From Streptococcus iniae (GTDB lineage: Bacteria > Bacillota > Bacilli > Lactobacillales > Streptococcaceae): DNA of 64,000 bases. Below the pieces are notes generated by a model, which saw only the letters and a list, made by a program, of their open reading frames with translations, searched no databases and was not told the DNA's origin. The translations under genes and the position numbers were made by a program. Shown here one piece after another: positions 22,176 to 43,283 of this stretch; the first letter of the stretch is position 1, and each line of letters starts with the position of its first letter. The stretch spans positions 214,001-278,000 of the forward strand of contig NZ_CP132230.1 in NCBI RefSeq assembly GCF_030732225.1, in the 5' to 3' direction.

Positions 22176-23051
22176 ATGGTAGAAGACAGCTTATTTTCTA
22201 TAGGACGAGCGGCAAACATGAGTGGTGTATCTGCAAAAACACTGCGTTATTATGAAAGTTTAGGACTGATTCATCCTAAATATGTTTCTAAAGAAAATGG
22301 TTATCGTTTTTACGATAAAGAAACCTTATTATTGATACCAATTATTAAATATTATCAGCAAGTTGGTTTAAATTTAAAAAGGATTAAGGAATTGATTTCC
22401 TTAACAGGCTGTTCCAATCATTATAAGTATTTGAAAAAACGCAAATCAGAAATTCAAGCAGAAAGAGAAAGGTTACTCATTTCCTTGGCTTCAATTGATG
22501 ATTGGATTCAACTCATTATTGAAGGGGAAATGTGTTTGCAAAATGATCTGCATTCAGAAGCAATGGCTGTCAGTCACATTGTTAGTGTCAAGTATTATGC
22601 AGAAGAATCCAGTTACTGTTCAATTGAGCAGCCTTATTATTACAGTTATAAGGAGTCTATCATTAATCTTGATTGGATTAAATATTTAGAAGACAATCAG
22701 TTGGAAGTTTCTGGGCCAGTTATCTTAAAATATGATTCACACGAGCAAAAAGTCAAGGGGCAGACGGAAAAAGCAACTATTTTACAGCATTGTTTTCCAG
22801 AGTCCTCTGATTTTTCAAATTTTGGTGGCTTCATGGCCTTGTCTTGCTATCACATTGGGGCCTTGGATTCTGTTAATGAGACTTATCAAAAAATCAGAGA
22901 TTACGCTGCTGCCCACAATTACACTTTAAAAGAAGAATGTTTTGAACGTCATGTTATTGATTACTGGGTGACCCAAAATCTGGATGAGTTTGTTACAGAA
23001 ATCATCATTCCCATTGTTACAAAAGATGAGATAACAAGAAGTGATTGGTGA
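22176..23051 (+). CDS. MerR-family regulator of the choline microcompartment operon
   Basis: A 291-residue MerR protein. The winged HTH covers residues 7-75 (FSIGRAANMSGVSAKTLRYYESLGLI, NGYRFYDKETL), a coiled-coil dimerisation helix follows (residues 80-115), and the C-terminal 170 residues resemble a GyrI/BmrR-like effector-binding domain. Start ATG follows AGGTAGAGGAAAAAG. The effector is probably choline or a product, by position. Two promoters with 19-bp spacers, one for merR itself and one for the operon, suggest positive autoregulation plus activation. Confidence 0.85.
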   Translation: MVEDSLFSIGRAANMSGVSAKTLRYYESLGLIHPKYVSKENGYRFYDKETLLLIPIIKYYQQVGLNLKRIKELISLTGCSNHYKYLKKRKSEIQAERERLLISLASIDDWIQLIIEGEMCLQNDLHSEAMAVSHIVSVKYYAEESSYCSIEQPYYYSYKESIINLDWIKYLEDNQLEVSGPVILKYDSHEQKVKGQTEKATILQHCFPESSDFSNFGGFMALSCYHIGALDSVNETYQKIRDYAAAHNYTLKEECFERHVIDYWVTQNLDEFVTEIIIPIVTKDEITRSDW

Positions 23052-23096
23052 TGTTCTGTGTAGAAGAAGCCATATCTATCTCAAGCACAAGGTGTA

Positions 23097-23120
23097 AGAG
23101 TCCTTTATAGGGCTTTTTTT
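23097..23120 (+). terminator. Terminator of merR
   Basis: AGTCC-TTTATA-GGGCT stem followed by a run of T residues, 46 bp after the merR stop. Confidence 0.7.
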
Positions 23121-23371
23121 GATGTTTTTTTTAACTTGAAGTGCTCTGACGGTATTTCCTTTTGGACTTGTCAAACATTTCTCTAAGAGTAAGGTTATAA
23201 GCCAATAAAAGCTTACCTTGGAAGGTCAATAGCTTGAACAGTGCTTGGTTTTGTTAGAAATTGTAGTTGCTAATGCTGAGCATGACAAGCTAGTATTCCC
23301 TTATTTATAAGGCTTTTACAAAAAAAGTTTTTTTGCTTGCCTTCACTGTTACATTTTTTACCTATCTCATA

Positions 23372-23402
23372 TTGACCTTCCAGTTATGGAAGGGCTTACA
23401 AT
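23372..23402 (+). promoter_or_regulatory. MerR-type promoter of the cut operon, 19-bp spacer
   Basis: -35 TTGACC (23372-23377), 19-bp spacer, -10 TACAAT (23397-23402). A perfect dyad CCTTCC-AGTTAT-GGAAGG (23376-23393) occupies the spacer, as in SoxR/BmrR-type promoters where the activator twists the DNA to realign the two boxes. Confidence 0.85.
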
Positions 23403-23487
23403 TGACTGAGATAGACTTTTAATAAGTAGTACTGAAGAAAAAGTCCTAAAAGTGTTTTAGTTAAAAAAATATATTGGAGGTAGTCTT

Positions 23488-23763
23488 ATGAATTCCGAAG
23501 CATTAGGAATGATTGAAACAAAAGGATTGGTTAGCTCAATTGAGGCAGCAGATGCCATGGTAAAAGCTGCAAATGTGACTTTGATTGGCAAAGAGTTAGT
23601 TGGTGGAGGGCTTGTTACAGTTCTTGTCCGAGGGGATGTCGGTGCTGTTAAAGCAGCCACAGATGCAGGTGCCGCTGCGGCACAACGGATTGGAGAATTG
23701 GTTTCAGTTCATGTTATTCCACGTCCACATGGTGAAGTGGAAATGATTTTACCGACTAAATAA
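23488..23763 (+). CDS. BMC hexameric shell protein
   Basis: A 91-residue single-domain BMC-H protein (PduA/EutM type): [27 protein letters not shown], then the pore-proximal [27 protein letters not shown] and the edge motif HVIPRPH. Hexamers tile the facets of the compartment, and the central pore passes small polar molecules. It is the first gene of the operon, behind GGAGGTAG. It is closely related to the three tandem copies at 37585-38471. Confidence 0.95.
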
Positions 23764-23771
23764 CGTTATAA

Positions 23772-23791: not shown

Positions 23792-23817
23792 ACTATCTTA
23801 GAAAAAGAGGTATAGCA

Positions 23818-24099: not shown

Positions 24100-24117
24100 T
24101 AAAAGGAGTAAAGTGAT

Positions 24118-24417
24118 ATGAGATATCATGGAGGACAAGCTTTAGGACTTGTTGAGACTGTTGGTCTAGTCCCGGCTTTAGAAGCTTGTGACAAAATGTT
24201 AAAAGCCAGCAATGTTAAACTGGTCTCTTACGAAAATGTCGGATCAACCTTAGTGACAATTATGGTTGTTGGAGATGTTGCTGCTGTTGAAGCTTCTGTT
24301 GAAGCAGGGGCACAAGCAGCAGCTGCAATAGGAAAATTAACCTCTCATAATGTGATGCCAAGACCCATTCCCTCTGTTGGGGATATTGTTTCCGTGCATG
24401 ATATTGATAATGAATAA
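24118..24417 (+). CDS. BMC hexameric shell protein
   Basis: A 99-residue BMC-H protein, divergent from the first: GQALGLVETVGLVPALEACDKMLKASNVKLVSYENVGSTLVTIMVVGDVAAVEASVEAG, ending with the short tail VGDIVSVHDIDNE. The pore loop (YENVGSTLV) differs from the [10 protein letters not shown] type, so its pore chemistry is probably different. AAAGGAG RBS, 18 bp after the previous gene. Confidence 0.93.
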   Translation: MRYHGGQALGLVETVGLVPALEACDKMLKASNVKLVSYENVGSTLVTIMVVGDVAAVEASVEAGAQAAAAIGKLTSHNVMPRPIPSVGDIVSVHDIDNE

Positions 24418-24428: not shown

Positions 24429-24746
24429 GTGGAAAGATATCAAGCAATTGGTGCCATTGAAACATTTGGATTGGTCTATATCCTAGAAGCAGCAGATGCA
24501 ATGGTAAAAGCTTCAGAAGTTGATGTTATTGGTTATGAGAATACCGCTTCAGGTTATATTTCTGTGATTGTTCAAGGAGAAACAGAAGCTTGTAAAACGG
24601 CTGTTGCAGCAGGTGTTAAAGCTGTTGAAAAAATGGGAACAGAAGTTTACAGCCATGTAGTTATTCCTGGCCCCCATGAAGACTTAAGAAAAATTATTGA
24701 CCGTTATTCATTATCCTTACTTTTACCAGAAGAGAGTCAAGAATAA
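24429..24746 (+). CDS. BMC hexameric shell protein
   Basis: A 105-residue BMC-H protein with GTG start (24429) behind AAAGGAGAA. The fold is shown by [54 protein letters not shown] and HVVIPGPHEDL. It has a C-terminal tail of about 15 residues. The pore loop YENTASGY is different again from the other shell proteins. Confidence 0.93.
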   Translation: MERYQAIGAIETFGLVYILEAADAMVKASEVDVIGYENTASGYISVIVQGETEACKTAVAAGVKAVEKMGTEVYSHVVIPGPHEDLRKIIDRYSLSLLLPEESQE

Positions 24747-24761: not shown

Positions 24762-26117
24762 ATGAGATATATTGACAAAGATTTAGATTCCATTCAAGAA
24801 ACCAGAAATCTCCTCCTCAATGCGAAATCTTCTTTTCTTCAATTGCAAAGCCTTAATCAAAGTGATTTAGATACTTATAGTAAAAGCTTCATTAGCCAAT
24901 TGAGCAGTCAGGCTGACGCTTTGATCCATGCTTTTACAATTGGGAATGATTATGGTGTTGAAAAGGACGAAGGTTTTCTTTGTCATACCTTTCTTCAACG
25001 TTTTAGTGACACCTTCCAAAACGAAAGCTATGTTGGTATTGTAGCTGGGGATGCAGATGACAAAGTGATTGAAATCGGTGTTCCATTAGGTGTGGTGGCG
25101 GTTTTGTTGCCAAGTCATCCAAGTTTTAGCCTAGTTGTGAATTTGATTTTAATAGCGATAAAATCAGGAAACGCCATGATTTTGGTAGCTAATAAACAGT
25201 CAAAACTTGCAACTTTAACAGGTATTAAAGAGCTTATTGCGCTAAACGATGAAAGCGGTTACTTAAATGGTGCTATAAGTTTGGCAGAAATTGTTAGTGA
25301 CGCTGGGATTTCTGAACTTTTAGCTAGTGATAAATTAGACTTACTTGTCAATATTGGATGTCCAGAATACATTTCTAAAGAGTTTAAGAGCAATACCCCT
25401 TGTATCTTTGGAGGCGAATCTTCTGGGCCAGTCTTTATTGAAAGAAGTGCAGATATTGAGCAAGCTGTTAGGGATGTTATTTACTCCAGAAGTTTTCACA
25501 ATGGGATTTTACCAGGAGCAGAACAGTTTCTTGTGACGGAAAATATTATCGCGCAGCCACTAAAAGCTAGCCTTACAGCTAATGGTGCTTACCTCCTCAC
25601 AACAGATGAAAGGCGCAAGCTGATTACTTTTTTAAAAGTATCAGAAAAAAACATTAGCAATAATTACATGGGCAAGTCAGCTAAATGGATTGCCAAGATG
25701 GCTGGTATTTCAGTGCCAGAAAGCACAAAAGTGTTGGTTTGTGTTCAAGATTATTTGACAGAAGAAGACTATTTTAGTCAAAAATTACTGTGTCCGATTA
25801 TTGTGGTTTATTTGGAACCAGATTGGACCTTGGCTTGTAGCAAGTGTATGTCTTTATTGTCAGAACTTAGAATGGGGCACACCTTGACCATTCACTCCAC
25901 TAACTGGCAGGTGATTCGAGAATTTGCCATGGTCAAGGCAGTTGGCCGTATTGTTGTTAATGCTCCAACGTCTTGCGCGGCAACAGGACTGACGTCAAGT
26001 TTTCCACCGTCTTTAATTTTAGGAGGGATTACGACAGGACGTGGTTATAGTTCAGAAAATATGACTCCCAAACATTGGACTTACACTAGGCGAGTTGGTT
26101 TCAAACTAGAGAAATAA
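24762..26117 (+). CDS. Aldehyde dehydrogenase-like protein lacking the catalytic cysteine
   Basis: A 451-residue homologue of CoA-acylating aldehyde dehydrogenases (EutE/PduP/CutF). It aligns with the paralogue at 35202 from IDKDLDSIQETR onward. Where the active paralogue has NGTICASEQ with C251, this protein has NGILPGAEQ with P251 at the same residue number. The central Rossmann segment GVPLGVVAVLLPSHPSFSLV is also altered. It lacks the 70-residue C-terminal extension of its paralogue. Acylating activity is therefore unlikely; a scaffold, regulatory or cofactor-retention role is possible. The frame is intact, which argues against simple decay. Confidence 0.85.
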   Translation: MRYIDKDLDSIQETRNLLLNAKSSFLQLQSLNQSDLDTYSKSFISQLSSQADALIHAFTIGNDYGVEKDEGFLCHTFLQRFSDTFQNESYVGIVAGDADDKVIEIGVPLGVVAVLLPSHPSFSLVVNLILIAIKSGNAMILVANKQSKLATLTGIKELIALNDESGYLNGAISLAEIVSDAGISELLASDKLDLLVNIGCPEYISKEFKSNTPCIFGGESSGPVFIERSADIEQAVRDVIYSRSFHNGILPGAEQFLVTENIIAQPLKASLTANGAYLLTTDERRKLITFLKVSEKNISNNYMGKSAKWIAKMAGISVPESTKVLVCVQDYLTEEDYFSQKLLCPIIVVYLEPDWTLACSKCMSLLSELRMGHTLTIHSTNWQVIREFAMVKAVGRIVVNAPTSCAATGLTSSFPPSLILGGITTGRGYSSENMTPKHWTYTRRVGFKLEK

Positions 26118-26171: not shown

Positions 26172-28718
26172 ATGGATATGAAAGAATTTACAGCTAAGTT
26201 GGAAGAAGCAACGAAGCAATTAAGTGATGCTGAACGTGCCTCACTAGAAAAATTATTCCAAAGTGTATCAGGCGATATTACTAAAGCTGATGACACTCAA
26301 AAAGAAAGTCCTCTGATTGCAGCAGAAGGAACTGAAGTGCCAGACGGCATTACCCCACGTTTGAATGCTTTGAAAAAACAATATTTGGAAGCCAAACCAA
26401 CCATTTCATTGATTAGAGCAATTAACTTAACAAAGATTTCTAAAGAAAATGAAGGCCTGCCAAAAGCTGTTTTACGTGGGACCGCTTTTAAAGAATTTTG
26501 TAAAATTGCGCCATTGATTATTCAAGATAATGAATTGCTTGTTGGGGCACCAAATGGTGGTGCACGCTTTGGTGCTTTCTCACCGGACATTTCTTGGCGT
26601 TGGTTACGTGATGAGCTTGATACTGTATCAACTCGTCCACAAGACCCATATGCCTTATCTGAAGAAGATAAGAAAATTTTAGTCGATGAAATCTTCCCAT
26701 ATTGGACTGGTAAATCTGTTGATGAAGCTTGTGAATCACAATACCGTGAAGCAGGTGCATGGGAATTATCAGGTGAATCCTTTGTTTCTGACTGTTCATA
26801 CCATGCAACATCAGGTGGTGGTGACTCAAACCCAGGTTATGATGTCATTGCTATGACTAAAGGGATGCTAGATGTTAAAGCACAAGCACAAGAACACTTG
26901 GCTGACCTTGATTATGGTAACCCAGATGATTTAGAGAAAATTTACTTCTATAAAGCACAAATTTTAACTGCTGAAGGGGTTATGATTTATGCTCAAAGAA
27001 TGTCTGACTATGCCGCACAACTTGCCGCTAAAGAAAGCAATCCAAAACGTAAAGCAGAATTAGAAGCTATTTCTCGAGTTAATGCTAATGTGCCTGCTCA
27101 TAAACCAGAAACCTTCTGGGAAGCTATGCAATATGTTGTGACCATTCAAAACTTGCTTCTTTGTGAAGAAAACCAAACGGGTCTTTCAATTGGACGTGTT
27201 GACCAATACATGTACCCACTTTATAAAAGAGATATTGAAGCTGGCCGCATGACACCCTACCAAGCTTTTGAATTGTCAGGTGCTATGTTCATTAAGATGT
27301 CAGAAATGATGTGGTTGACCTCTGAAGGCTCATCTCAATTCTTCGCCGGTTACCAACCATTTGTCAACATGTGTGTTGGTGGTGTTACTCGTGATGGTCG
27401 TGATGCTACCAATGACTTAACTTATCTTTTGATGGATGCTGTTCGTCACGTCAAAGTATACCAACCAACCCTTGCAACCCGTGTTCACAATAAATCTCCG
27501 CGTGACTACTTGAAGAAAATTGTTGAGGTTGTTCGTGCAGGTATTGGATTCCCAGCTTGTCACTTTGATGACACTCACATCAAGATGATGTTAGCTAAAG
27601 GTGTGTCAATGGAAGATGCCCGTGATTACTGTTTGATGGGCTGTGTTGAACCTCAAAAATCAGGTCGCCTTTACCAATGGACATCAACAGCTTACACACA
27701 ATGGCCAATCTTAATTGAAACAACCTTGAATCATGGTATTCCCCTTTGGTATGGAAAACCAGTTACCCCAGACATGGGATCACTTGATCACTATAAAACA
27801 TTTGAAGCGTTTGAAACAGCTGTTAAAGAAACCATTAAGTATGTCACTAAATGGACATCTGTAATGACTGTTATTTCGCAACGTGTTCAACGGGAATTGG
27901 CACCAGTACCGTTGATGTCAATCATGTATGAAGGCACTATGGAAAATGGACGTGATGTTAAAGCTGGTGGGGCAATGTATAACTTTGGTCCAGGTGTTGT
28001 TTGGTCAGGACTTGCGAACTATGCAGACTCAATGGCTGCCATTAAAAAATTAGTTTTTGAAGATAAAAAATACAGTCTTGAAGAATTAAACAAAGCTTTA
28101 GTCGCAGACTTTGAAGGTTATGATCAGGTTCGTGCTGATTGCTTGTCGGTTCCTAAGTATGGGAATGACGATGACTATGTTGATTACTTCACGTCAGACA
28201 TCATTGCCTTCACAGAAGCTGAACACCGTAAATACAAGACTTTGTATTCTGTCTTAAGTCATGGAACCTTGTCTATTTCAAACAACACACCATTAGGGCA
28301 AATCACAGCGGCATCAGCATCAGGTCGTCGTGCGTGGACACCATTATCAGATGGGATTTCACCAGATCATGGTATGGATACCAAAGGACCAACAGCAATT
28401 ATTAAATCTGTTTCTAAGATGGCCAATGAAAACATGAATATTGGTCTTGTTCACAACTTTAAGATTATGGCTGGTTTACTTGATACACCTCAAGGAGAAG
28501 AAAGTTTAATCACCCTTCTTAGAACAGCAAGTATTCTTGGTAATGGTGAGATGCAATTTAACTATCTTGACAACAATACCTTGATTGACGCTCAAAAACA
28601 TCCTGAAAAATACCGTGACTTAATTGTCCGTGTTGCAGGATACAGTGCCTTCTTTGTTGAATTGTGCAAAGATGTTCAAGATGAAATTATTGCAAGAACA
28701 GTTTTAACCAGAATTTAA
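26172..28718 (+). CDS. cutC: Choline trimethylamine-lyase, glycyl radical enzyme
   Basis: An 848-residue glycyl radical enzyme that cleaves choline to trimethylamine and acetaldehyde. The CutC active site is complete: D218 in [11 protein letters not shown]491 and E493 in [15 protein letters not shown], and radical glycine G823 in RVAGYSAFF. These are each two residues later than the described D216/C489/E491/G821 set. GCVEP separates CutC from glycerol and propanediol dehydratases. Residues 1-40 form an amphipathic helix plus linker, a likely encapsulation peptide. Length fits the short CutC type (GRM1) rather than the long enterobacterial type. The enzyme needs CutD for activation and is destroyed by oxygen. 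Confidence 0.96.
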
Positions 28719-28783: not shown

Positions 28784-29740
28784 GTGGTGGTAACAACACA
28801 TAAACATGAAACGCGAATTAATGTCTTCAATGTTCAAAAATACAACCTCTATGATGGTCCAGGAATCCGCACCATCGTCTTCTTTAAGGGGTGTCCGATG
28901 CGGTGTAAGTGGTGTGCCAATCCAGAAGGATTGGCATTTGGGACAAACATGATGTATAAAGAGACTCTGTGTAAACCCTATAATTCATGTGCGCAGACCT
29001 GTCCTCTTGGCAAAGTTTGCTTTGATTACACAGATAAAGAACATCCCATTGATATTAGGAATTACCAGAAAAAACTACCAAGCCAAGAGGATATTAAGGG
29101 CTGTCCAGAAGGTGCCTTAAGCATTGCCGGTCAGTCAAAAACCATCTCAGAACTCATGGCCATTATTCATGAAGACGATGCCTTTTATGACATGTCAGGT
29201 GGTGGTGTTACCTTGTCAGGTGGGGAATGTCTGGCACAACCTGAGGGTGCAATTGCTCTTTTACAAGCCTGTAAGCAAGATGGTTTGAACACAGCTGTTG
29301 AAACAGCTGGTCATGTGCCTAATAAGGTTGTTATGGCAGTTGCTGAATATACCGATTTATTCTTATTTGACATGAAGCACATGGATTCAAAACGACACAA
29401 TGAACTTACAGGTGTTGGAAATGAACGGATTTTAGCAAATTTAAAATACATTATTGAAGCAGGATATCAGGTTAAAATCAGAATGCCGATGCTAAAAGAG
29501 ATTAACGACAGTGAAGAAGAGATTAAATCAGTTATTGAGTTTTTGCTTCCTTACAAAAATTATCCCAATTTTCAAGGGATTGATTTGTTGCCCTATCACA
29601 AATTAGGGGTCAATAAGTACAATCAATTAGGCTTGGAATATAAGATAAAAGGAGACCCTTCGTTAAGTCAATATGATTTAGATCGGATTGAAAGTTATAT
29701 ATTATCTTATGATTTTCCAGTAACTGTTGTGAAGCACTGA
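28784..29740 (+). CDS. cutD: Choline TMA-lyase activating enzyme, radical SAM
   Basis: A 318-residue glycyl-radical activase. The radical-SAM cluster motif CxxxCxxC is in KGCPMRCKWCANPE (residues about 36-44). A ferredoxin-like insertion follows (CKPYNSC..CPLGKVC..GCPEGAL), then GGGVTLSGGECL for SAM binding. It installs the radical on G823 of CutC and needs a low-potential one-electron donor. Start is GTG 28784 (or GTG 28787) after TTAGGAG. Directly downstream of cutC, as usual. Confidence 0.95.
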   Translation: MVVTTHKHETRINVFNVQKYNLYDGPGIRTIVFFKGCPMRCKWCANPEGLAFGTNMMYKETLCKPYNSCAQTCPLGKVCFDYTDKEHPIDIRNYQKKLPSQEDIKGCPEGALSIAGQSKTISELMAIIHEDDAFYDMSGGGVTLSGGECLAQPEGAIALLQACKQDGLNTAVETAGHVPNKVVMAVAEYTDLFLFDMKHMDSKRHNELTGVGNERILANLKYIIEAGYQVKIRMPMLKEINDSEEEIKSVIEFLLPYKNYPNFQGIDLLPYHKLGVNKYNQLGLEYKIKGDPSLSQYDLDRIESYILSYDFPVTVVKH

Positions 29741-29756: not shown

Positions 29757-30110
29757 ATGGTGTTTGAAGAAATGGGAAAAATAGATCGAATCATTCAAGA
29801 ATCGGTACCAGGAAAACAAATTACCCTTGCTCATTGCATTGCAGCTCCAATTGATGCTGTTTATGACAGTTTAGGAGTTTCAAAACAAGGTGCTATTGGT
29901 ATTTTGGCCTTAACACCTTATGAAACTGCTATTATAGCAGCAGATATTGCAGGTAAAGCAGCAGATGTTGATATTTGTTTTGTTGATCGCTTTACAGGTT
30001 CTCTCATGTTTAGCGGCGATGTTCAGAGTGTTGAAACCTCTTTAGAAAGTATCTTAGATTATTTCAAGGAAAAATTAGGATTTTCAACAGTTTCCCTAAC
30101 ACGATCATGA
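29757..30110 (+). CDS. EutS/PduU-type circularly permuted shell protein
   Basis: A 117-residue BMC protein of the permuted EutS/PduU class: an N-terminal strand (RIIQESVPGKQITLAHCIA) that forms a beta-barrel over the pore, then the permuted BMC core (GVSKQGAIGILALTPYETAIIAADIAGKAADVDICFVDRFTGSL). The hexamers are thought to have a capped pore. AGGAGG RBS; its stop overlaps the next start. Confidence 0.9.
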   Translation: MVFEEMGKIDRIIQESVPGKQITLAHCIAAPIDAVYDSLGVSKQGAIGILALTPYETAIIAADIAGKAADVDICFVDRFTGSLMFSGDVQSVETSLESILDYFKEKLGFSTVSLTRS

Positions 30111-30553
30111 AAAAAAGAATCCTTGTTATTGGTCCAGAGGACGATGAGAAAAGAAAACTTCTTGCAATGATTGAGAAGAGTCATTCTTTGAAGCAAGTAA
30201 ACTCAATTGTTTATCATGACCACACCATTGATGTTCCAAGTTCTTATTTAAGAAGTCCTTGGATGACACGTCACATTATTGCCTGTCAGCAAAATGCTTA
30301 CTGCGTTTTAATGTTACTGAATGAAAATCGTGAATTTAGGGTTTATTCTCCCAATTTTGCCAGAGCATTTCGAGTGCCAAGTATTGGACTAATCTTACGC
30401 AGTGAAGCTAATGACTTGGCTCAACGAGAGGACTGTCATAGAGAATTGGAAGAAGCTAGTCTTGATGAGATTTATGAGATTGTAATAGACGCTCAAGAAG
30501 ATTGTCAGAGATTAGTCGATAAAATCAAATTATTAAGAGAAGGTAAACAATGA
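30107..30553 (+). CDS. EutP/PduV-like protein with degenerate P-loop
   Basis: A 148-residue protein whose beginning (KKRILVIGPEDDEKRKLLAMIE) occupies the place of a Walker A motif but lacks GxxxxGKS/T. The YHDHTIDVPSSYL segment corresponds to the DTPGEY-like G3 region of EutP/PduV small GTPase-like proteins. Nucleotide binding is therefore doubtful. It overlaps its upstream neighbour by 4 bp and the alcohol dehydrogenase by 4 bp. PduV-like proteins associate with shell proteins, and a similar role is possible here. Confidence 0.75.
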   Translation: MKKRILVIGPEDDEKRKLLAMIEKSHSLKQVNSIVYHDHTIDVPSSYLRSPWMTRHIIACQQNAYCVLMLLNENREFRVYSPNFARAFRVPSIGLILRSEANDLAQREDCHRELEEASLDEIYEIVIDAQEDCQRLVDKIKLLREGKQ

Positions 30554-31680
30554 AAGTGCAAGAATTTAAGGTAGGGCCTAAGTTTATATTTGGTAATGGG
30601 TCCATAAAAGAAATTTCAAAGTTACCCATAAAAAAAGCTTATGTCATTTGCGATCCCTTTATGGAAAAAAACCATATGGTTGATGAAGTTTTAAAAAACT
30701 TGAAAGCAGCTGGAGCAGAAACCATGGTCTTTTCAAAAGTTGTTCCAGACCCAACTGTTCAAGTGGTTTCGCAAGGAGTAGCAGAAATTAAAGCCTTTAA
30801 ACCTGATACAGTCATTGCGTTAGGTGGTGGTTCAGCCATGGACTCAGCTAAGGCTGTTATAAGGGTTTATACGGAGTCAGAAAAGGTTGACAAGCCAAGG
30901 TTAATTGCCATACCAACAACAAGTGGGTCAGGGAGTGAAAATACTGCTTTTGCCGTTATTTCAGACCCAACCTATAATGAAAAAATTGCCTTGGTAGATT
31001 CATCAATGGTTCCAGATATTGCTATTTTAGACAATACCTTTACCATGAGTGTTCCCAAAGCAGTAACAGCAGATGCCGGAATGGATGTCTTAACACACTG
31101 TTTAGAAGCCTATGTTTCAAATCAAGCGAGTGATTTTTCAGATGCTTGTGCTGAAAAAGGAATTGCTCTAACTTGGAAATACTTACCAGTAACTTACAAA
31201 TATGGTGAGGATAAGCTGGCGCGTGAAAAGATGCATAATGCCTCATCGATTGCAGGAATTGCCTTTAACAATGCTGGTTTAGGTATTTGCCATAGCTTAT
31301 CACATGCTATTGGTGCTTTCTTCCATGTTCCTCATGGTAGAATTAATGCCTTTTTGTTACCGCATGTCATTGCTTTTAATGCGTCAGTTAATGAATCCCA
31401 TGAAACTGAAGTGACAAAACGTTATGCCCAAGTGGCTGAGATTTTAAATTTACAAAGATCAACTGCTAAACAAAGTGTCATGGCTCTAATGGCAGCTATT
31501 AAACGGATGTCACAAGCTTTTGGCATACCAAATACTCTTGAAGACTTAGGGATTGATCGAGCAGCGTTTGAAAAAATGATTCCAGAAATGGCAAAGCGTG
31601 TTATGGCAGATGCTTGTACACCAACAAATCCTCGCCCGGTAACTCTTAAAGATATTGAGACCATTTACCGAGGCTTGTAG
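30550..31680 (+). CDS. cutO: Iron-type alcohol dehydrogenase
   Basis: A 376-residue group III Fe-ADH (EutG/CutO type). The NAD site is ALGGGSAMDSAKAV; metal ligands lie in DAGMDVLTHCLEAY, ICHSLSHAIGAFFHVPHG. It reduces acetaldehyde to ethanol, regenerating NAD+ for the aldehyde dehydrogenase inside the compartment. The ATGA overlap with the EutP-like gene implies coupled translation. Confidence 0.92.
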   Translation: MKVQEFKVGPKFIFGNGSIKEISKLPIKKAYVICDPFMEKNHMVDEVLKNLKAAGAETMVFSKVVPDPTVQVVSQGVAEIKAFKPDTVIALGGGSAMDSAKAVIRVYTESEKVDKPRLIAIPTTSGSGSENTAFAVISDPTYNEKIALVDSSMVPDIAILDNTFTMSVPKAVTADAGMDVLTHCLEAYVSNQASDFSDACAEKGIALTWKYLPVTYKYGEDKLAREKMHNASSIAGIAFNNAGLGICHSLSHAIGAFFHVPHGRINAFLLPHVIAFNASVNESHETEVTKRYAQVAEILNLQRSTAKQSVMALMAAIKRMSQAFGIPNTLEDLGIDRAAFEKMIPEMAKRVMADACTPTNPRPVTLKDIETIYRGL

Positions 31681-33227: not shown

Positions 33228-33524
33228 ATGTTAGTTGCAGAGTTAGTTGATAATATATGGGCAACAAGAAAATCTGATGCCCTGAGTGGCGCAAAGTTAT
33301 TGCTAGCAGAAGTTAAAGGTGGCAGTAAAGCAGGAGAGCTTATTGTTGTTGTAGATATGATTGGTGCAGGAATTGGTGACCGCGTTATTATTACGACAGG
33401 TTCTGCAGCTCGTCGCATGATGGGAGACGACCAAATGCCAGTTGATGCCGCAGTTGTTGGAATCATTGATGACAATTATGATGACGTTAAAAAACAAAAT
33501 GGTAAACAAGAAAGATTTTCGTAA
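33228..33524 (+). CDS. eutN: EutN/CcmL-type pentameric vertex protein
   Basis: A 98-residue BMC-P protein: MLVAELVDNIWATRKSDALSGAKLLLAEV, then VVVDMIGAGIGDRVIITTGSAARRMMG and DAAVVGIIDDNYD. Pentamers close the twelve vertices of the shell. It is the only pentamer gene seen. Start ATG 33228 follows AAAAGGAGAAACG; the earlier frame opening at 33192 lies inside eutJ. Confidence 0.93.
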   Translation: MLVAELVDNIWATRKSDALSGAKLLLAEVKGGSKAGELIVVVDMIGAGIGDRVIITTGSAARRMMGDDQMPVDAAVVGIIDDNYDDVKKQNGKQERFS

Positions 33525-33946: not shown

Positions 33947-34579
33947 ATGGCAAATTTAATTGTTGCTAAAGATGTTTTGGCTTGTTTTGAAAAGGGTCAG
34001 ACAACTTGTTACATCGACCCAGGAACAATCATTACACCTGCTGCTAAAGATGAAGCTAAAAAACGAGGGGTGACTTTTGTAGACTGTCAACAACCTTGTT
34101 CAAAACAAGAAACCACTTGTAATGGCGACATAACTTCAGATGAATTGTTGTCCTTATTAAAAAAAATGTTGAGCAATTGTGATGAGAAGGCTGCTAAACC
34201 AAGTTTACCTTATCGTAGTGTTGTTCACTCAAATGGTTTAAAAATTGTTAAGGGTGGCACTGTTAGAATGGATGTTTTTGATACTGGAAACCCCGAAGAT
34301 AAGATTGGTTTCCAAGAGCTTGTTAGTAAAGACGAATCCAAAATGAGTGCTGGTTTCTTAACCATTGACCATTCGAGCTTTGCTTGGAAATTACCATATG
34401 AGGAGATTGACTATGTGATTTCTGGAACAGTTTCCATTGATATTGACGGTCAAACCTATGTTGGTCGTGCTGGGGACGTTATATTTGTTCCAGAAGGATC
34501 TGATGTGGTTTGGGGCTCGCCTGATAATGCGAAACTCTTTTACACCACTTTTCCAGCTAATTGGGCAGATTTAATGTAA
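33947..34579 (+). CDS. eutQ: EutQ-like cupin protein
   Basis: A 210-residue protein. The N-terminal part (GTIITPAAKDEAKKRGVTFVD) is a short domain shared with EutT/EutQ. The C-terminal 110 residues are the EutQ cupin (FLTIDHSSFAWKLPYEEIDYVISGTVSIDIDGQTYVGRAGDVIFVPEGSDVVW). Salmonella EutQ has acetate kinase activity and interacts with the shell. Here it could turn acetyl-phosphate into acetate plus ATP within or near the compartment (inference). Confidence 0.88.
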   Translation: MANLIVAKDVLACFEKGQTTCYIDPGTIITPAAKDEAKKRGVTFVDCQQPCSKQETTCNGDITSDELLSLLKKMLSNCDEKAAKPSLPYRSVVHSNGLKIVKGGTVRMDVFDTGNPEDKIGFQELVSKDESKMSAGFLTIDHSSFAWKLPYEEIDYVISGTVSIDIDGQTYVGRAGDVIFVPEGSDVVWGSPDNAKLFYTTFPANWADLM

Positions 34580-35201: not shown

Positions 35202-36863
35202 ATGAAGACAATCGATATTGATCTCTGCTCGATTCAAGAAGCACGAGATCTTGCAAAAAAAGGGAAAGAAGCGGCTGATAAAGTGGCACACTTCTCTGAT
35301 GAACAAATTGATGCGATTTTACAGAATATTGTTAAAGCTGTTCAAGCTAATGCCTATCACTTGGCAGAAATGGCAGTTGAAGAAACAGGATTTGGAAAAG
35401 TAGCTGATAAAGCTTATAAAAATCATGCGGCATCACATTTGCTTTATGAAGAGATTAAGCATCAAAAAACCTCAGGAATTATTGAATTTGATGAAAAAAA
35501 TAAACTTTTCAATGTAGCAGAACCAATGGGGTTGATACTAGGGATAACCCCTTCTACAAACCCAACGTCAACCATCATTTTTAAAGCAATGATTGCAATC
35601 AAGGCACGTAATGCCATTGTTTTTGCACCTCATCCAGCTGCTAAACGGTGTAGTATTGCGGCAACAGAACTTGTTCGAAAAGCAGCCATTGAAGCAGGAG
35701 CACCAGAACATTTGGTTGCTTGCGTGATGAACCCTTCTTTAGAATCAAGTAATACCTTGATGCATGCTAAAGAAGTTTCAATGATTATTGCTACTGGCGG
35801 TCCTGGTATGGTTAAAGCAGCTTACAGCAGTGGTAAACCAGCAATAGGTGTTGGGGCAGGAAACTCGCCAGCCTATATTGAACGAACAGCAGATGTTAAA
35901 AAAGCCGTTTCAAACATCCTAGCCTCTAAAACCTTTGATAATGGCACCATCTGTGCTTCTGAACAAGCCATTATCTGTGAAGAAGTCAATAAAGATGAGG
36001 TTATTCGTGAATTAAAAGCACAAGGTTGTTACTTTATGACCAAAGAGGAAACAGATAAGGTTTGTGATGTTCTCTTTAGAGGCAATTCACAAGGGTGCAA
36101 CCCATCAATGAGTCCGAAATTTGTTGGAAAACCTGCAACCGAAATTGCTGAGGCAGTTGGCTTAGCCGTTCCAAAGGATACTAAAGTTCTTGTGGGTCCT
36201 CAATCAGGTGTCGGTCAAGGCAATCCATTGTCATTTGAAAAATTAACAACAGTTTTAGGTTTCTATGTGGTTAAGAACTGGGAAGAAGCCTGTGCTTTGA
36301 GTATTCGTCTCTTGCAAAATGGCATTGGGCACACCATGAGTCTACACACAGAAGATCCAAAAATGATTTTCCGCTTCTCAACAAAACCAGCCTCTCGTAT
36401 TCTGGTTAATACAGGTGGTAGTCAAGGTGGCACTGGAATCTCAACAGGTTTACCAGTTGCTTTCACACTTGGTTGCGGTACAGCAGGAGGAAGTTCGGTT
36501 TCTGAAAACCTTGGACCCAAACATTTGATGAACATCAAAACAGTAGCTTATGGCATAAAAGATGTGACAAACTTAGTGGCCGATGATGCTATTTTTCAGG
36601 CTTTGCCAAAAGGGTGCCCAACACAGTCAATGAAAGAAGAGGTATCAGTAGTGTCTTCTGCATCCATTCACTGCAAAGAGACTAGCGTTTCTTGCCAGAC
36701 ACAAAAAGCCTTTCTCGATCAAACGCCTCAATCCATTCAAGAGGCATTTGAAAGACGGCAGGCACAAAAACCTTCTGATGATAGCATAAAAATCAATGCC
36801 AATACTGCAGTAGACAATGACACTATTGTAAGAGAAATCTTATCAGCTTTAAAACAGAAATAA
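35202..36863 (+). CDS. cutF: CoA-acylating acetaldehyde dehydrogenase with encapsulation tail
   Basis: A 553-residue enzyme that oxidises acetaldehyde to acetyl-CoA with NAD+ and CoA. Catalytic C251 is in KTFDNGTICASEQ. The nucleotide site is EPMGLILGITPSTNPTSTIIFK, and the CoA-region motif GGSQGGTGISTGLPVAFTLGCGTAGG is intact. Residues about 480-553 are an extra Gln/Ser-rich linker ending in an amphipathic helix (NDTIVREILSALKQK), a probable encapsulation peptide. Compare the cysteine-less paralogue at 24762. Confidence 0.93.
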   Translation: MKTIDIDLCSIQEARDLAKKGKEAADKVAHFSDEQIDAILQNIVKAVQANAYHLAEMAVEETGFGKVADKAYKNHAASHLLYEEIKHQKTSGIIEFDEKNKLFNVAEPMGLILGITPSTNPTSTIIFKAMIAIKARNAIVFAPHPAAKRCSIAATELVRKAAIEAGAPEHLVACVMNPSLESSNTLMHAKEVSMIIATGGPGMVKAAYSSGKPAIGVGAGNSPAYIERTADVKKAVSNILASKTFDNGTICASEQAIICEEVNKDEVIRELKAQGCYFMTKEETDKVCDVLFRGNSQGCNPSMSPKFVGKPATEIAEAVGLAVPKDTKVLVGPQSGVGQGNPLSFEKLTTVLGFYVVKNWEEACALSIRLLQNGIGHTMSLHTEDPKMIFRFSTKPASRILVNTGGSQGGTGISTGLPVAFTLGCGTAGGSSVSENLGPKHLMNIKTVAYGIKDVTNLVADDAIFQALPKGCPTQSMKEEVSVVSSASIHCKETSVSCQTQKAFLDQTPQSIQEAFERRQAQKPSDDSIKINANTAVDNDTIVREILSALKQK

Positions 36864-36873: not shown

Positions 36874-37572
36874 ATGGAGCAAGATTTAGAACGTTTATTT
36901 TATCAGGTCATTGATCAATTGAGTGGTTTGACGTCTTCAGAAAATCTCAGTCAGGAATCAGCCTTAGTAAAGCCTTCTTGTCCAAGAGATTTGGATACAA
37001 ATGGGTTTGTTATCCCATTAGGTGTTTCAAACCATCATATCCATCTGTCACAGGCTGATGCGGACCTTCTCTTTGGAGAAGGGTATGTCTTTCAAAAACT
37101 CAAAGATCTCTCTCAACCAGGTCAGTTTGCTTTTCAAGAATGTGTCACAATTGCAGGGCCAAAAGGTGTGATTGACAAAGTGCGTATCTTAGGACCAGTT
37201 AGAGGAGAAAGCCAAGTTGAAATCACAGCAACAGATGGCTTTAAATTAGGAATTAATGCCCCCTTACGTCTCTCAGGAGACCTAGAAGCTACGCCTAGTT
37301 GTACGGTTATCGGACCAGCCGGTTCAGTCCAATTGAAAAAGGGATGTATTATTGCTAAACGCCATATTCATATGACACCAGAAGATGCCAAATGTTTTGG
37401 GGTTGTCGACAAAGAAGAAGTCGCCTTAGAGTTGCCAGGTGAGCGTGGCGGTATTCTCAAAAATGTGACCATCCGTGTTAAAGAAACATTTGCACTAGAA
37501 TGCCATTTAGATACCGAAGAAGCCAACGCCCTGGGAGTTACAGGCAAGGATAAATTACGTTTAATGAAATAA
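36874..37572 (+). CDS. pduL: PduL-type phosphate acyltransferase
   Basis: A 232-residue PduL enzyme that turns acetyl-CoA and phosphate into acetyl-phosphate, recycling CoA inside the compartment. The two zinc-binding clusters are SNHHIHLSQADA and AKRHIHMTPEDA. The N-terminal 25 residues (MEQDLERLFYQVIDQLSGL) form an amphipathic helix, a likely encapsulation peptide. It follows the aldehyde dehydrogenase by 10 bp. Confidence 0.94.
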   Translation: MEQDLERLFYQVIDQLSGLTSSENLSQESALVKPSCPRDLDTNGFVIPLGVSNHHIHLSQADADLLFGEGYVFQKLKDLSQPGQFAFQECVTIAGPKGVIDKVRILGPVRGESQVEITATDGFKLGINAPLRLSGDLEATPSCTVIGPAGSVQLKKGCIIAKRHIHMTPEDAKCFGVVDKEEVALELPGERGGILKNVTIRVKETFALECHLDTEEANALGVTGKDKLRLMK

Positions 37573-37584: not shown

Positions 37585-37860
37585 ATGACTTCAGAAGCAT
37601 TAGGAATGATTGAAACCAAAGGGTTGATTGGCTCGATAGAAGCCGCAGATGCTATGGTAAAAGCCGCCAACGTTACTTTAATTGGAAAAGAATTTGTTGG
37701 GGGAGGTCTAGTAACCGTCTTGGTACGTGGAGATGTAGGAGCAGTAAAAGCCGCCACAGATGCAGGAGCCGCTGCCGCACAACGTGTTGGAGAACTTATT
37801 TCAGTTCACGTTATCCCACGACCTCATAGCGAAGTTGAACTGATTTTACCAAATAAATAA
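37585..37860 (+). CDS. BMC hexameric shell protein, tandem copy 1
   Basis: A 91-residue BMC-H protein, nearly identical to the next two and close to the one at 23488 ([54 protein letters not shown]). AAAAGGAG RBS. It is probably a main facet protein, and gene dosage may matter. Confidence 0.95.
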
Positions 37861-37890
37861 TGGCTATTGCCAAAAGAAAGAGGAATACAC

Positions 37891-38166
37891 ATGAACTCAG
37901 AAGCATTAGGAATGGTTGAAACTAAAGGATTAATTGGTTCAATAGAAGCCGCAGACGCCATGGTAAAAGCCGCCAACGTTACTTTAATTGGAAAAGAATT
38001 TGTTGGAGGGGGTCTAGTAACCGTCTTGGTACGTGGAGATGTAGGAGCAGTAAAAGCCGCCACAGATGCAGGAGCCGCTGCCGCACAACGTGTTGGAGAA
38101 CTTATTTCAGTTCACGTTATCCCACGCCCTCACAGTGAAGTTGAATTGATTTTACCAACAAAATAA
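37891..38166 (+). CDS. BMC hexameric shell protein, tandem copy 2
   Basis: A 91-residue BMC-H protein. It starts at ATG 37891 behind AAAGAGG; an in-frame TTG at 37867 is rejected for lack of an RBS. It differs from copy 1 at only a few residues (N-terminal MNS for MTS, GMVE for GMIE, T for N near the end). The nucleotide sequence is almost identical over the central 200 bp, a sign of recent duplication or gene conversion. Confidence 0.94.
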
Positions 38167-38195
38167 GGCAAATAAAAAAAGAAAGAGGAATACAC

Positions 38196-38471
38196 ATGAA
38201 CTCAGAAGCATTAGGAATGATTGAAACTAAAGGATTAATTGGTTCAATAGAAGCCGCAGACGCCATGGTAAAAGCCGCCAACGTTACTTTAATTGGAAAA
38301 GAATTTGTTGGAGGGGGTCTAGTAACCGTCTTGGTACGTGGAGATGTAGGAGCAGTAAAAGCCGCCACAGATGCAGGAGCCGCTGCCGCCCAACGTGTTG
38401 GGGAACTTATTTCAGTTCACGTTATCCCACGTCCTCACAGTGAAGTTGAACTCATTTTACCAAAACACTAA
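38196..38471 (+). CDS. BMC hexameric shell protein, tandem copy 3
   Basis: A 91-residue BMC-H protein with the same upstream AAAGAGGAATACAC as copy 2, so the duplicated unit includes the RBS. The C-terminus ends LPKH rather than LPTK. It is the last shell gene. A 122-bp gap then precedes the PFOR gene. Confidence 0.94.
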
Positions 38472-41500: not shown

Positions 41501-42229
41501 GCTTATGACATTGGTTTTGGTGGGCTTGATCATGTCTTAGCCAGTGGAGCAGATCTTAATATTTTGGTGCTTGATAATGAAACTTATTCTAACACCGGAG
41601 GTCATGTGTCTAAAGGGACGCCAAAATCAGCCATAGCCAAATTCTCATCCTCTGGGAACCGTGGCTCCAAAAAAGATTTGGGCATGATGGCCATGACATA
41701 TGGCAACGTTTACGTTGCCCAAGTAGCTAGTGGCGCAAATCCGATTCAGCTTATTAAAGCTTTTGAAGAGGCAGAACGTTATCCGGGACCATCCCTTATT
41801 ATTGCTTATGTGCCTTGTATTAGTCATGGACTTGCAGGTGGTCTAAAAGAGAGCCTAGAGGAAGCTAGGGAGGCTGTGGCATCTGGTTATTGGTCTCTCT
41901 ACCGATACAACCCGCAATTACAAGAAATGGGTAAGAACCCCATGCAGCTTGATTATAAAAGGCCTCAATTCGATAAAATGATTGACTTTATGGTGAAACA
42001 AGAACGTTTTTCAGCCTTGGAGCAGGTCAATCCTATTGCAGCTAAACAATTACTACAAGAAACCGTCAGCAATGCTAGACGTCGATTTCTAACTTATGCT
42101 AAGCTATCAGGAGACCATGACAGTTTCATCTCTAAATCAGAGGTCACCCATGCTAGAGCAAATGCTAAAAAAGGAACAGTCATGGCAAATGACTCCCTAG
42201 AAGAAATTTTAAAAAGTCTCGACTTTTAA
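38594..42229 (+). CDS. nifJ: Pyruvate:ferredoxin (flavodoxin) oxidoreductase
   Basis: A 1211-residue single-chain PFOR, full length. Order: N-terminal pyrimidine domain (AYAFSDMAGIYPITPSSTMAE), CoA domain, two 4Fe-4S clusters (CIQCNQCAFVCPHA near 690, CTGCELCVKTCPARG near 744), a further Fe-S cysteine pair (GACPGCGETPY) and the thiamine-diphosphate motif (GGDGWAYDIGFGGLDHVL..LDNETYSNTGG). It oxidises pyruvate to acetyl-CoA and reduces ferredoxin or flavodoxin. PFOR is unusual in streptococci, which rely on pyruvate formate-lyase. Strong RBS AAAGGAGG. It probably feeds electrons to CutD. Confidence 0.95.
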   Translation: MHKEIMDGNTAAAHIAYAFSDMAGIYPITPSSTMAESVDIWQTEGRKNLFGQELKVVEMQSEAGVAGFVHGALKTGALTTTFTSSQGLLLMLPNLYKIAGELLPAVFHVAARAVTTNALSIFGDHSDVMSVRQSGCAMLAESSVQEVMDLSVLAHLATLETSIPFVSFFDGFRTSHELQRIEVFDNDDLRPLLNEEALAVFRSRAMNPNHPKVSGSNQGPELYFQQRETVNRHYQIIPYVVQKYMQKINALRGTHYDLMTYYGDKQASELIIAMGSVAQTIEQTVYYLNQKGRKVGFINVHLYRPFPKEHFLAILPKSVQAIAVLDRTKEPGAIGEPLFMDVQSALFESACRPKVIGGRYGIGCKDTGPEQIIAVFDELQKSDAKKHFTLGIEDDVTHLSLALGETLDLTGKNSYQVKFWGLGGDGTVSLNKSNVKIIGEHTDKEVQAYFYYDSRKQNGLTVSHLRFSPEAIKSSYFVQEPDFVGVSTAAYLRQYDLLKGLKQGGIFLLNTTWSQEQLHRNLPANLKKYLADHQIRFYTINAYQIAQTVGLDRKSSICMQTAFFKLTQLLPMQEAILAMKDHVLKTYKQKSPEVVAKNLKAIALSMDALQKIDVPKEWSYAQPTSMKRMAQTNAYFRDIQEPTTRLEGDTISVGQLIKHGMVAGDLPLGQVVHEKRSLALEVPEWNADACIQCNQCAFVCPHAAIRPFLIDQDELNVAPKGYNVRDFKGQDGLLYRIQVSVENCTGCELCVKTCPARGKALKMVPVTSDNELKMKEEAINWAFAMSLRAKENPAKPGSLLFTQFEQPLLEFSGACPGCGETPYIKLLTQLFGDRMMVANATGCSSIWGVMAPATPYSTNALGQGPALSNSLLEDNAEFGYGMMLANKNQRQALVPLMQKAMPVASLDLKALMQDWIEHLHQGLGSRARSAKLRSALSEEMQDQPLLKELYAHSDLFVKPSQWLIGGDGWAYDIGFGGLDHVLASGADLNILVLDNETYSNTGGHVSKGTPKSAIAKFSSSGNRGSKKDLGMMAMTYGNVYVAQVASGANPIQLIKAFEEAERYPGPSLIIAYVPCISHGLAGGLKESLEEAREAVASGYWSLYRYNPQLQEMGKNPMQLDYKRPQFDKMIDFMVKQERFSALEQVNPIAAKQLLQETVSNARRRFLTYAKLSGDHDSFISKSEVTHARANAKKGTVMANDSLEEILKSLDF

Positions 42230-42248
42230 CTAAAAATGGAGTAAATAA

Positions 42249-43283
42249 ATGGAAAGCAAAAAACACACTCATATAGCTTCTGCGCAAAGTCAGATGGATA
42301 AAGTAACCAATCAATTTCGTGTTAAAGGTATGTTTCACGGTATTATGTCAGGTTTCACCTATGGCATTTATTCTGTGTTATTGATGGTTGCTAGTGGTTA
42401 TAGTCCTTTAGCGACAGCTGCAGGAATTTTAGCAGCTCCTTATGTCACATCGGGTCTTAATGACTTATTGTCTGGTTTGATTTTAACCCTTTATAATTTG
42501 AAACAAGGTAAGTTAAAAGAAATTCCTCGCACCCTAAAAACCCGTCCTGGTCAGCTTTTGATTATTGGCTTCTTATTAGGTGGGCCAATTGCTAGTGGGG
42601 CTTATCTTATTGGTCTTTATTTTGCAGGTGCATATGCTATTCCAATCTCAGCAACCAATGCTTTGTTTGGGGCACTTTTTTCAGCTATCTTCTTAAAAAC
42701 AAAAATCAATTTCCGTGTAGGTTCAGGAATGTTTATCTGTGTTACGGGTGCTATTATTATTAACTGGGTAAAACCAGAAGGTGCACCTAACTTCACATTG
42801 GGAATCATTTGTGCCCTTATTGCAGCTATCTGCTGGGGTGCTGAAGGGGTGTTTTCAGCTTTTGGTGGGGCTATGCTTGACCAAGAAGTTGCAGTTAATA
42901 TCCGTCAATTGATTTCAGGCTGTGTGAGCTTAATCTTGATTGTTCCATCTATTGGAGCAGTCGGTCTTTTAATCAAAACAATTAGTGTAGGTGTTCCAGT
43001 CTTTTGGTTAGCCTTAGCAGGGATTGCTGCGGGCATGTCTTTCATCTTTTGGTATAAGGCAAATTCGACAATTGGAACAGCTATTGGAATGTCCTTGAAC
43101 ATTACCTATGCCTTCTGGGGTGTCTTGTTCAGTATCATCTTCTTACACCAAGCTATTACACCAACAATTGTACTTGGTTCAATCATTATCATCGTGGGAG
43201 CAATCTTGGTAACCATGAACCCACTTGATTTCTTCAAAAAGCCAGAAACCATTGAAGAACAATTAAGCCTTGATAATGAGTAA
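42249..43283 (+). CDS. DMT-superfamily permease, candidate choline importer
   Basis: A 344-residue integral membrane protein with ten hydrophobic segments in two repeated EamA-like halves (AYAIPISATNALFGALFSAIFLK; TAIGMSLNITYAFWGVLFSIIFLH). It is the last gene of the operon, 19 bp after nifJ and before a strong terminator. No other transporter is present in the cut locus, so choline import (or trimethylamine/ethanolamine-type export) is the likely job. The family alone does not define the substrate. Confidence 0.8.
   Translation: MESKKHTHIASAQSQMDKVTNQFRVKGMFHGIMSGFTYGIYSVLLMVASGYSPLATAAGILAAPYVTSGLNDLLSGLILTLYNLKQGKLKEIPRTLKTRPGQLLIIGFLLGGPIASGAYLIGLYFAGAYAIPISATNALFGALFSAIFLKTKINFRVGSGMFICVTGAIIINWVKPEGAPNFTLGIICALIAAICWGAEGVFSAFGGAMLDQEVAVNIRQLISGCVSLILIVPSIGAVGLLIKTISVGVPVFWLALAGIAAGMSFIFWYKANSTIGTAIGMSLNITYAFWGVLFSIIFLHQAITPTIVLGSIIIIVGAILVTMNPLDFFKKPETIEEQLSLDNE

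Follow-up and report, generated by a model that had tools for sequence, protein, structure and literature searches.

A GRM1-type choline microcompartment locus of Streptococcus iniae with a tail-bearing pyruvate:ferredoxin oxidoreductase as candidate electron source for the CutC activase

A stretch of 64,000 nucleotides of the Streptococcus iniae genome (contig NZ_CP132230.1, positions 214,001 to 278,000; hereafter the window) was found to contain 23 genes, all on the plus strand, that run from a MerR-family regulator to an EamA permease (window positions 22176-43283; Table 1). By its sequences the locus was confirmed to be a choline microcompartment locus of the GRM1 type, i.e. the type of glycyl radical microcompartment (GRM) with a short choline trimethylamine-lyase, CutC. 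It encodes a pyruvate:ferredoxin oxidoreductase (PFOR) with a C-terminal tail, and no motif of the iron-sulfur shell proteins GrpU and PduT. We propose that this PFOR may be packaged in the compartment and may supply electrons to CutD, the activating enzyme of CutC.

The initial annotation had described the region as a choline-degrading microcompartment locus, and every gene it named was found at its position. These were, besides CutC and CutD, nine shell-type genes (seven BMC-H EutM-like, one EutS-like and one EutN-type), the dismutation pair of alcohol dehydrogenase (ADH) and acetaldehyde dehydrogenase (AldDH), PduL, EutJ, EutQ, PFOR, the EamA permease and the MerR regulator. Not included there were a second AldDH without the catalytic Cys, a PadR-like protein, a EutP-like protein without Walker A, a EutT-like protein, the absence of GrpU and PduT, and the tail of PFOR.

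Table 1. Features of the choline microcompartment locus, in window coordinates (AF2, AlphaFold2; pLDDT, predicted local distance difference test; BMC, bacterial microcompartment)
Feature	Position	Strand	Basis
MerR-type promoter, TTGACC-19 bp-TACAAT, before MerR gene	21985..22015	+	motif scan
MerR-family regulator	22176..23051	+	nearest NCBIfam NF053782, choline utilization transcriptional activator
MerR-type promoter, 19-bp spacer, before first shell gene	23372..23402	+	motif scan
BMC-H shell protein, EutM type	23488..23763	+	family scan
PadR-like winged-helix protein, 93 aa	23818..24099	+	AF2 mean pLDDT 94.5; Foldseek to PadR structures
BMC-H shell protein	24118..24417	+	family scan
BMC-H shell protein	24429..24746	+	family scan
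Pseudo-aldehyde dehydrogenase, Pro at catalytic Cys position	24762..26117	+	family scan, alignment
CutC choline trimethylamine-lyase, 848 aa, N-terminal extension read as encapsulation peptide	26172..28718	+	TIGR04394
CutD glycyl-radical activating enzyme	28784..29740	+	TIGR04395; CPMRCKWC radical-SAM motif and further Cys
BMC shell protein, EutS/PduU-like	29757..30110	+	family scan
EutP/PduV-like protein without Walker A	30107..30553	+	family scans
Iron-type ADH	30550..31680	+	family scan
EutT-like protein (label from reading the sequence)	31746..32384	+	sequence reading
EutJ	32359..33216	+	384 bits, cut-off 182
EutN-type BMC-P vertex protein	33228..33524	+	family scan
EutQ-like acetate kinase	33947..34579	+	131.8 bits, below equivalog cut-off 193
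BMC-H shell protein with C-terminal extension, 191 aa	34595..35170	+	family scan
Acetylating AldDH, catalytic Cys; putative C-terminal encapsulation peptide ending DTIVREILSALKQK	35202..36863	+
PduL phosphotransacylase, N-terminal extension read as encapsulation peptide	36874..37572	+	264 bits, cut-off 209
BMC-H tandem copy 1	37585..37860	+	sequence comparison
BMC-H tandem copy 2	37891..38166	+	sequence comparison
BMC-H tandem copy 3	38196..38471	+	sequence comparison
Pyruvate:ferredoxin (flavodoxin) oxidoreductase (PFOR), 1211 aa	38594..42229	+	TIGR02176, 1753 bits, cut-off 911
PFOR C-terminal extension, residues 1173-1211: variable linker and terminal segment DSLEEILKSLDF, read as encapsulation peptide	42110..42226	+
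EamA/DMT-type permease, 344 aa	42249..43283	+	family scans

Against TIGR04394, the equivalog model of choline lyases, CutC scored 1516 bits where 1050 are required, and CutD reached 436 bits with TIGR04395, whose cut-off is 360; both identities thus held at the curated NCBIfam cut-offs. All four active-site residues that had been listed for CutC (D218, C491, E493 and G823) were present. The length of the enzyme, which had been taken to match the GRM1 type, was borne out by a short N-terminal extension of the encapsulation type and by the scores against solved structures. These were best for the 849-aa choline lyase 5fau (1427 bits), followed by the 1150-aa 9f3w (1233) and 5a0u (1155).

According to passages of Ferlez et al. 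2019 (PMC6325248), the short CutC extension is the unifying feature of GRM1 loci. The GRM2 loci of Klebsiella and E. coli 536 have, in the same passages, the same choline lyase function and, like the window, no GrpU, PduT or PduS. On the other hand, their CutC is long, with about 350 extra N-terminal residues, which are absent from the 848-aa protein of the window. In a quick tree of 84 CutC rows (GRM1 without any GRM2 row), the window and 12 other streptococcal CutCs formed one clade with a support of 100 (SH-like approximate likelihood ratio test), in which the window CutC was next to that of S. uberis (99). This, together with the equivalog score, supported the GRM1 assignment. The other GRM1 traits, namely hexamer and pentamer shell genes, AldDH, ADH and a phosphotransacylase, were all present.

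A streptococcal choline compartment is not new in itself, because S. dysgalactiae is on record: parts of PMC7019844 report a cutC amplicon in strains 485, 486 and A1.3, and list this species as one that converts choline to trimethylamine. GRM1 loci and their inactive second AldDH are likewise already known (PMC4207490). With the GRM1 loci of Desulfovibrio alaskensis, Clostridium and Enterococcus, the window shares the short CutC, CutD, AldDH, inactive second AldDH, ADH, PduL, EutJ, EutQ, EutP-like protein, EamA permease, EutM, EutN and EutS shell genes and MerR regulator. It differs from them in having no GrpU or PduT motif, a tailed PFOR, and a EutP-like protein without Walker A.

Two sets of loci were compared. 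The streptococcal set comprised 13 loci, including the window, from 284 Streptococcus genomes; the S. merionis locus was cut by a contig end. The non-streptococcal set comprised 71 loci (L013-L083), which were the best 80 of 252 related stretches minus nine streptococcal ones. They were viewed over up to 10 kb on either side of CutC, and several ended earlier at contig ends.

The route of low-potential electrons to the activase inside GRMs is treated as an open question in passages of PMC6325248, with PduS, PduT and GrpU as candidates. GrpU is placed there in about 85% of GRM1 loci, and PduT/PduS in about 25%, so that these accessory proteins are frequent in the type without defining it. We scanned for GrpU by the motif G.CPQ[NH], and for PduT by its pore motif in shell-protein-like open reading frames (ORFs). 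Of the 71 non-streptococcal loci, 63 had the GrpU motif, which was found by script in 61 of them and by eye in L017 and L082. Seven of the remaining eight had the PduT motif (L023, L024, L045, L050, L056, L075 and L076). The last one, L034 from a Lactobacillus metagenome-assembled genome, had neither motif in its stretch and was the only one of the 71 with a PFOR there. Thus, in 70 of the 71, the fetched stretch contained a motif of GrpU or PduT and lacked PFOR. In the streptococcal loci, on the other hand, the motif scans found neither GrpU nor PduT (0/13, with the S. merionis locus covered up to its contig end).

In the loci with GrpU, its position was between EutJ and EutN in 63 of 63; in the window, the spacing between EutJ and EutN is 11 bp. 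PFOR was lacking at E 1e-100 in eight of 40 GRM1 genomes (L023, L024, L029, L038, L041, L043, L045 and L050), all of which carried a GrpU or PduT motif.

Some candidates for GrpU, PduT and PduS were rejected. A GrpU remnant in the gap at 33525-33946 was dismissed, as most of this interval is taken up by a 113-bp tandem repeat. The five GrpU-ORF matches in it were weak as well as short (E 0.002 to 0.38), and three of them were on the opposite strand. The repeat consists of 3.1 units with 97% matches (33580-33933, in the EutN-EutQ interval); a gap of similar size was seen in only S. merionis among the other streptococcal loci. Three weak GrpU-ORF matches in streptococcal loci (E 2e-7 to 2e-5) came from a single frame of L054 and lay inside EutJ. 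They were not counted because the first part of this frame resembles EutJ DNA in another frame; comparison of the frame with the EutJ protein gave nothing of weight. A PduT-motif match in L081 was dropped, as by sequence it was not a shell protein. PduS, tested in the window genome through the RnfC_N domain only, gave no match over the cut-off. The sole match, below the cut-off, was in an ORF that reads as an efflux adaptor-like protein.

The window PFOR contained the motifs CIQCNQCAFVC (at residue 690), CTGCELCVKTC (744), CPGC (815) and GDGWAYDIG (966). In its C-terminal part, the Cys residues and the thiamine-site motif were invariant in 12 aligned rows. With its [4Fe-4S] and thiamine motifs, the catalytic core looks intact.

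Among the 284 Streptococcus genomes, CutC was called in 13 (E 1e-250) and PFOR in 14 (E 1e-100), and all 13 CutC genomes also had PFOR (Fisher's exact test, 1.5e-21). The loci form one clade, so that this reflects linkage in one lineage. The only genome with PFOR and without CutC (G084) had a PFOR without the tail. PFOR lay behind the last tandem shell gene in 12 of the 13 loci. In the other, that of S. merionis (G085), the contig ends there, and PFOR was located near the start of another contig, adjoining a shell gene.

The full-length PFORs of the streptococcal loci were 64.6-71.5% identical to that of the window. In a PFOR tree, the 12 full-length sequences formed one clade (100), which was sister to Enterococcus and V. 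humatus rows. The L034 PFOR was placed elsewhere, with Enterococcaceae rows, on a long branch of unsure placement. This suggested a second, separate recruitment.

In an order-wide sample of 395 genomes, PFOR was present in 134 and CutC in 34. Reading by eye among the matches listed, we found PFOR at E 1e-100 in 27 of the 30 non-streptococcal CutC genomes and none in G468, G512 and G593. Among these matches, the nearest non-streptococcal PFOR on the same contig as CutC was about 63 kb away (G513), and the others were farther or on other contigs. The closest PFOR relatives, the housekeeping PFORs of Enterococcus and Vagococcus (58-64% identity), differed in having charged Arg/Ala/Glu-rich or short C-termini, and no cut gene lay within about 1.5 kb of them.

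Likeness of the window PFOR to solved PFORs ended at residue 1172 (6cin) or 1165 (1b0p and 7plm) of 1211. The tail has 39 residues, no Cys, a drifting Lys-rich linker and a conserved amphipathic end. This end was hydrophobic at positions -3, -6, -7 and -10 in all 13 streptococcal loci and at -1 in 12 of them, S. uberis being read from its third open frame and S. merionis from a separate alignment. Among the rows listed from the order-wide sample, only streptococcal PFORs aligned to residue 1211; G052 aligned to 1192, and its tail was read separately. A short amphipathic segment, a poorly conserved linker to one terminus and absence from non-compartment homologs are traits of encapsulation peptides, and all three held for the PFOR tail.

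The window AldDH scored 692 bits against its family model (cut-off 620). In all 13 streptococcal loci, AldDH terminated in [IL]VREILS[AST]L, followed by two or three further residues. We interpreted this end as a packaging tag, because type I AldDHs, mostly of EUT2, bear a C-terminal peptide (passages of PMC8217296), and EUT2 and GRM1 AldDHs share one trunk (passages of PMC4207490).

The two tails have a core in common, [ILVF]xx[IL][ILVF]xxL, at most four residues from the C-terminal end. It was present in 12 of 12 full PFORs from streptococcal cut loci and in the last S. uberis frame, and in none of 32 other PFORs, including those of G084 and L034. In AldDH, it was present in 13 of 13 streptococcal loci versus two of 97 AldDH-like ORFs of other loci. 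The background among other ORFs of at least 250 aa was 29 of 1006; 14 of the 29 were non-streptococcal second AldDHs, which may be tagged themselves. The common core suggested that PFOR bears the lineage's own cargo tag, as shared docking would predict. Judged from these sequences, PFOR is probably packaged in the compartment.

We propose the following scheme for a GRM1 choline microcompartment switched by MerR. CutD would make the glycyl radical on CutC, and inside the shell CutC would cleave choline to trimethylamine and acetaldehyde. AldDH would convert acetaldehyde to acetyl-CoA, from which PduL would form acetyl phosphate and acetate kinase ATP; ADH would make ethanol and recycle NAD. The steps of CutD, CutC, AldDH, PduL, acetate kinase and ADH are established for the family, and we infer them for the window by homology. 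In other GRM1 loci, an iron-sulfur shell protein (GrpU or PduT) may carry electrons across the shell. In the streptococcal loci, the tagged PFOR would take its place, co-packaged with the other enzymes, and would oxidise pyruvate with a private lumenal CoA pool recycled by AldDH and PduL. Its electrons would reach the CutD clusters directly or via flavodoxin or ferredoxin, and PduL would drain the acetyl-CoA made by PFOR.

What the sequences show is the gene content, the co-occurrence of PFOR and CutC, a tail confined to locus-borne PFORs, and the missing GrpU and PduT motifs. Packaging, the entry of pyruvate and the electron hand-over are what we infer in this scheme. Given packaging, the electron role of PFOR is likely. 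For the whole proposal, PFOR as packaged cargo that gives CutD its electrons, we consider the balance to be somewhat favourable. That lumenal PFOR functionally replaces GrpU and PduT, such that a conduit in the shell and generation inside it are interchangeable routes to activase reduction, could equally well be right or wrong. The window genome encodes a flavodoxin and a small ferredoxin, and no [FeFe] hydrogenase was found in it at E 0.001. This suits a priming role of PFOR. We know of no earlier case in which the low-potential electron source of such a glycyl-radical organelle carries a tag.

Several observations weigh against packaging or against an electron role of PFOR. Over the last 12 residues, the hydrophobic moment exceeded that of shuffled sequences at p < 0.05 in only four of the 13 loci. 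AF2 in single-sequence mode gave the tail helix a low confidence, with a mean pLDDT of 53 over the last ten residues. As CutC and PFOR each form one streptococcal clade, the 13 of 13 amounts to one evolutionary event, with L034 as a likely second, and the tail-less PFOR of L034 indicates that packaging is not needed there. In the draft genome of S. uberis (G275), PFOR lies in three separate open frames, a split that may be genuine or a draft error; the adjoining CutC and CutD match over their whole length. No PFOR was found at E 1e-100 in 270 of the 284 genomes, yet streptococci activate pyruvate formate-lyase; PFOR is thus not the sole route by which a glycyl radical enzyme can be primed. In the isethionate microcompartment of Bilophila, also of the glycyl-radical type, PFOR co-fractionated with the compartments, and so did DsrAB; co-fractionation alone would therefore not prove tag-driven packaging. 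In these parts of PMC8667426, the role considered for PFOR is that of an electron acceptor located outside the compartment, and a packaging tail is not mentioned.

PFOR might instead be a cytosolic neighbour that reduces flavodoxin, with CutC being activated before the shell closes and the tail having no targeting role. Activation before encapsulation was proposed for GRM2 in passages of Ferlez et al. (PMC6325248). A flavodoxin is encoded elsewhere in the window genome, and L034 combines a tail-less PFOR with a GrpU-less locus. However, the end of the tail was kept in 13 of 13 loci despite the drift of the linker, in PFORs as divergent as given above (full-length rows), and the AldDH tails of these loci have the same core. 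We regard the cytosolic alternative as rather unlikely. It appears most unlikely that the extension is a stability or oxygen-protection element. The chains of 1b0p and 7plm, which we take to be the Desulfovibrio africanus PFOR with an extra C-terminal domain presumably of this function, extend about 70 residues past the end of the alignment, and streptococci are facultative anaerobes. However, the likeness to these chains stops ahead of the tail, which is short and Cys-free, with a linker that varies and a short end that is conserved. PFOR could also chiefly supply acetyl-CoA for ATP through PduL and acetate kinase, or drain pyruvate, rather than power CutD, as its product is the substrate of PduL from the same locus. 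Such bulk flux would need an electron sink, and neither an [FeFe] hydrogenase (E 0.001) nor RnfC_N over the cut-off was found, other sinks not having been searched for; we consider this role very unlikely.

PFOR as microcompartment cargo is not mentioned in the titles and abstract openings surveyed, nor in parts of PMC6325248, PMC4207490, PMC8217296, PMC8156839, PMC6620236, PMC8667426, PMC8571420 and PMC8473912. As far as we have seen, the streptococcal variant, with a tail-bearing PFOR in place of the iron-sulfur shell proteins of other GRM1 loci, has no earlier description. The streptococcal loci would represent a natural swap, the iron-sulfur shell protein out and the tagged PFOR in, which makes the question of electron supply testable and suggests a role of GrpU and PduT in reducing the activase. 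For the construction of anaerobic compartments, the swap would provide a further cargo and a further tag. Trimethylamine production by streptococci, the medical side, has been reported before.

Where a GRM1 locus has two AldDHs, the Cys of the second is replaced by Ser or Pro according to passages of Axen et al. (PMC4207490), and the window, with Pro, agrees with this. Among 79 second AldDHs (the window and 78 of 80 fetched loci), the catalytic position was Ser in 37, Pro in 35, Ala in seven and Cys in none; a lone Cys row in the alignment was the true AldDH of L011. No second AldDH gene was found in the locus of Streptococcus sp. LYSM12 (G221; L105, L011), which offers a natural absence for probing the role of the pseudo-aldehyde dehydrogenase. 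Among 53 scanned Cys-less second AldDH ORFs, 14 ended in an encapsulation-like motif resembling the streptococcal PFOR tail (L019, L025, L026, L036 and L046 being cited as loci). None of those in streptococcal loci did. This raised the question whether the tag moved from the pseudo-aldehyde dehydrogenase to PFOR.

The MerR regulator scored 230 bits against NF053782, below the cut-off of 450. A 19-bp spacer between the -35 and -10 elements is the hallmark of MerR-activated promoters. All 13 streptococcal loci had TTGAC(C/T)-19 bp-TACAAT upstream of their first shell gene. On both strands of the window, there were only two such sites, those of the MerR gene and the shell operon, with 0.045 expected per mononucleotide shuffle. 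The dyad in the spacer was clear in the window (CCTTCC...GGAAGG) and in some other loci, and weaker in several; a strict dyad filter kept few sites. Among the 71 non-streptococcal loci, a MerR homolog was found in 53 and a homolog of the PadR-like protein in 66.

Six shell genes were scanned against family libraries, and the tandem trio was assessed by sequence comparison alone. The shell protein at 23488 was the sole one of the six above its NCBIfam cut-off (EutM), the others matching below theirs; the three scanned against Pfam were all over the Pfam cut-offs. The tandem EutM-type genes (37585-38471) were 93-97% identical in DNA, with three amino acid differences. The streptococcal loci have one to three copies.

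Walker A was missing from the EutP-like ORF of all 13 streptococcal loci, of which the G221 copy aligned only in part, and was kept in 51 of 64 others. At E 0.001, the EutT-like protein had no match in NCBIfam or Pfam, and its family is unclear. Weak Cob_adeno_trans matches were obtained for three of 30 aligned members (best E 0.0053). No B12-dependent enzyme was seen in the locus where this gene sits. The permease gene is 3'-terminal in the window and in S. uberis, whereas in the 11 remaining streptococcal loci it is flanked by a shell gene and the winged-helix gene. Behind the permease, the draft S. uberis genome (G275; L106, L118) has a second CutC-like glycyl radical enzyme in two pieces.

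The flanks of the 13 streptococcal loci showed no sign of one shared site. The genes flanking the window locus had no match at the other 12 loci, or 22-37% identical paralogs of common ABC and two-component families. The best S. uberis matches to two of these genes (55 and 64%) were on a contig other than that of its cut locus. An empty site in S. uberis was considered and rejected, as the histidine kinase and secreted-protein homologs lie about 7 kb apart in another order on contig C23, and the cut locus is on C4.

Several transposase copies or fragments, presumably IS256-like, were present at 43500-44675 and 58856-61336. The Rfam family Spy392987 matched at 44674, 60958, 61335 and 63483. The first three matches were at the starts of transposase genes, which suggested that this RNA family may be part of the element. 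By our reading of the sequences, the region at 4151-18128 is likely a hyaluronan-use island, with sugar-acid catabolism, a phosphotransferase system, a heparinase-like enzyme and a LacI-type regulator; a 1167-aa hyaluronate lyase-like protein is also encoded there, on the minus strand. The secreted protein encoded at 44817-45887 contains a repeat of about 150 aa in two copies, and its streptococcal relatives (several matches) reach frames of up to 1194 aa.

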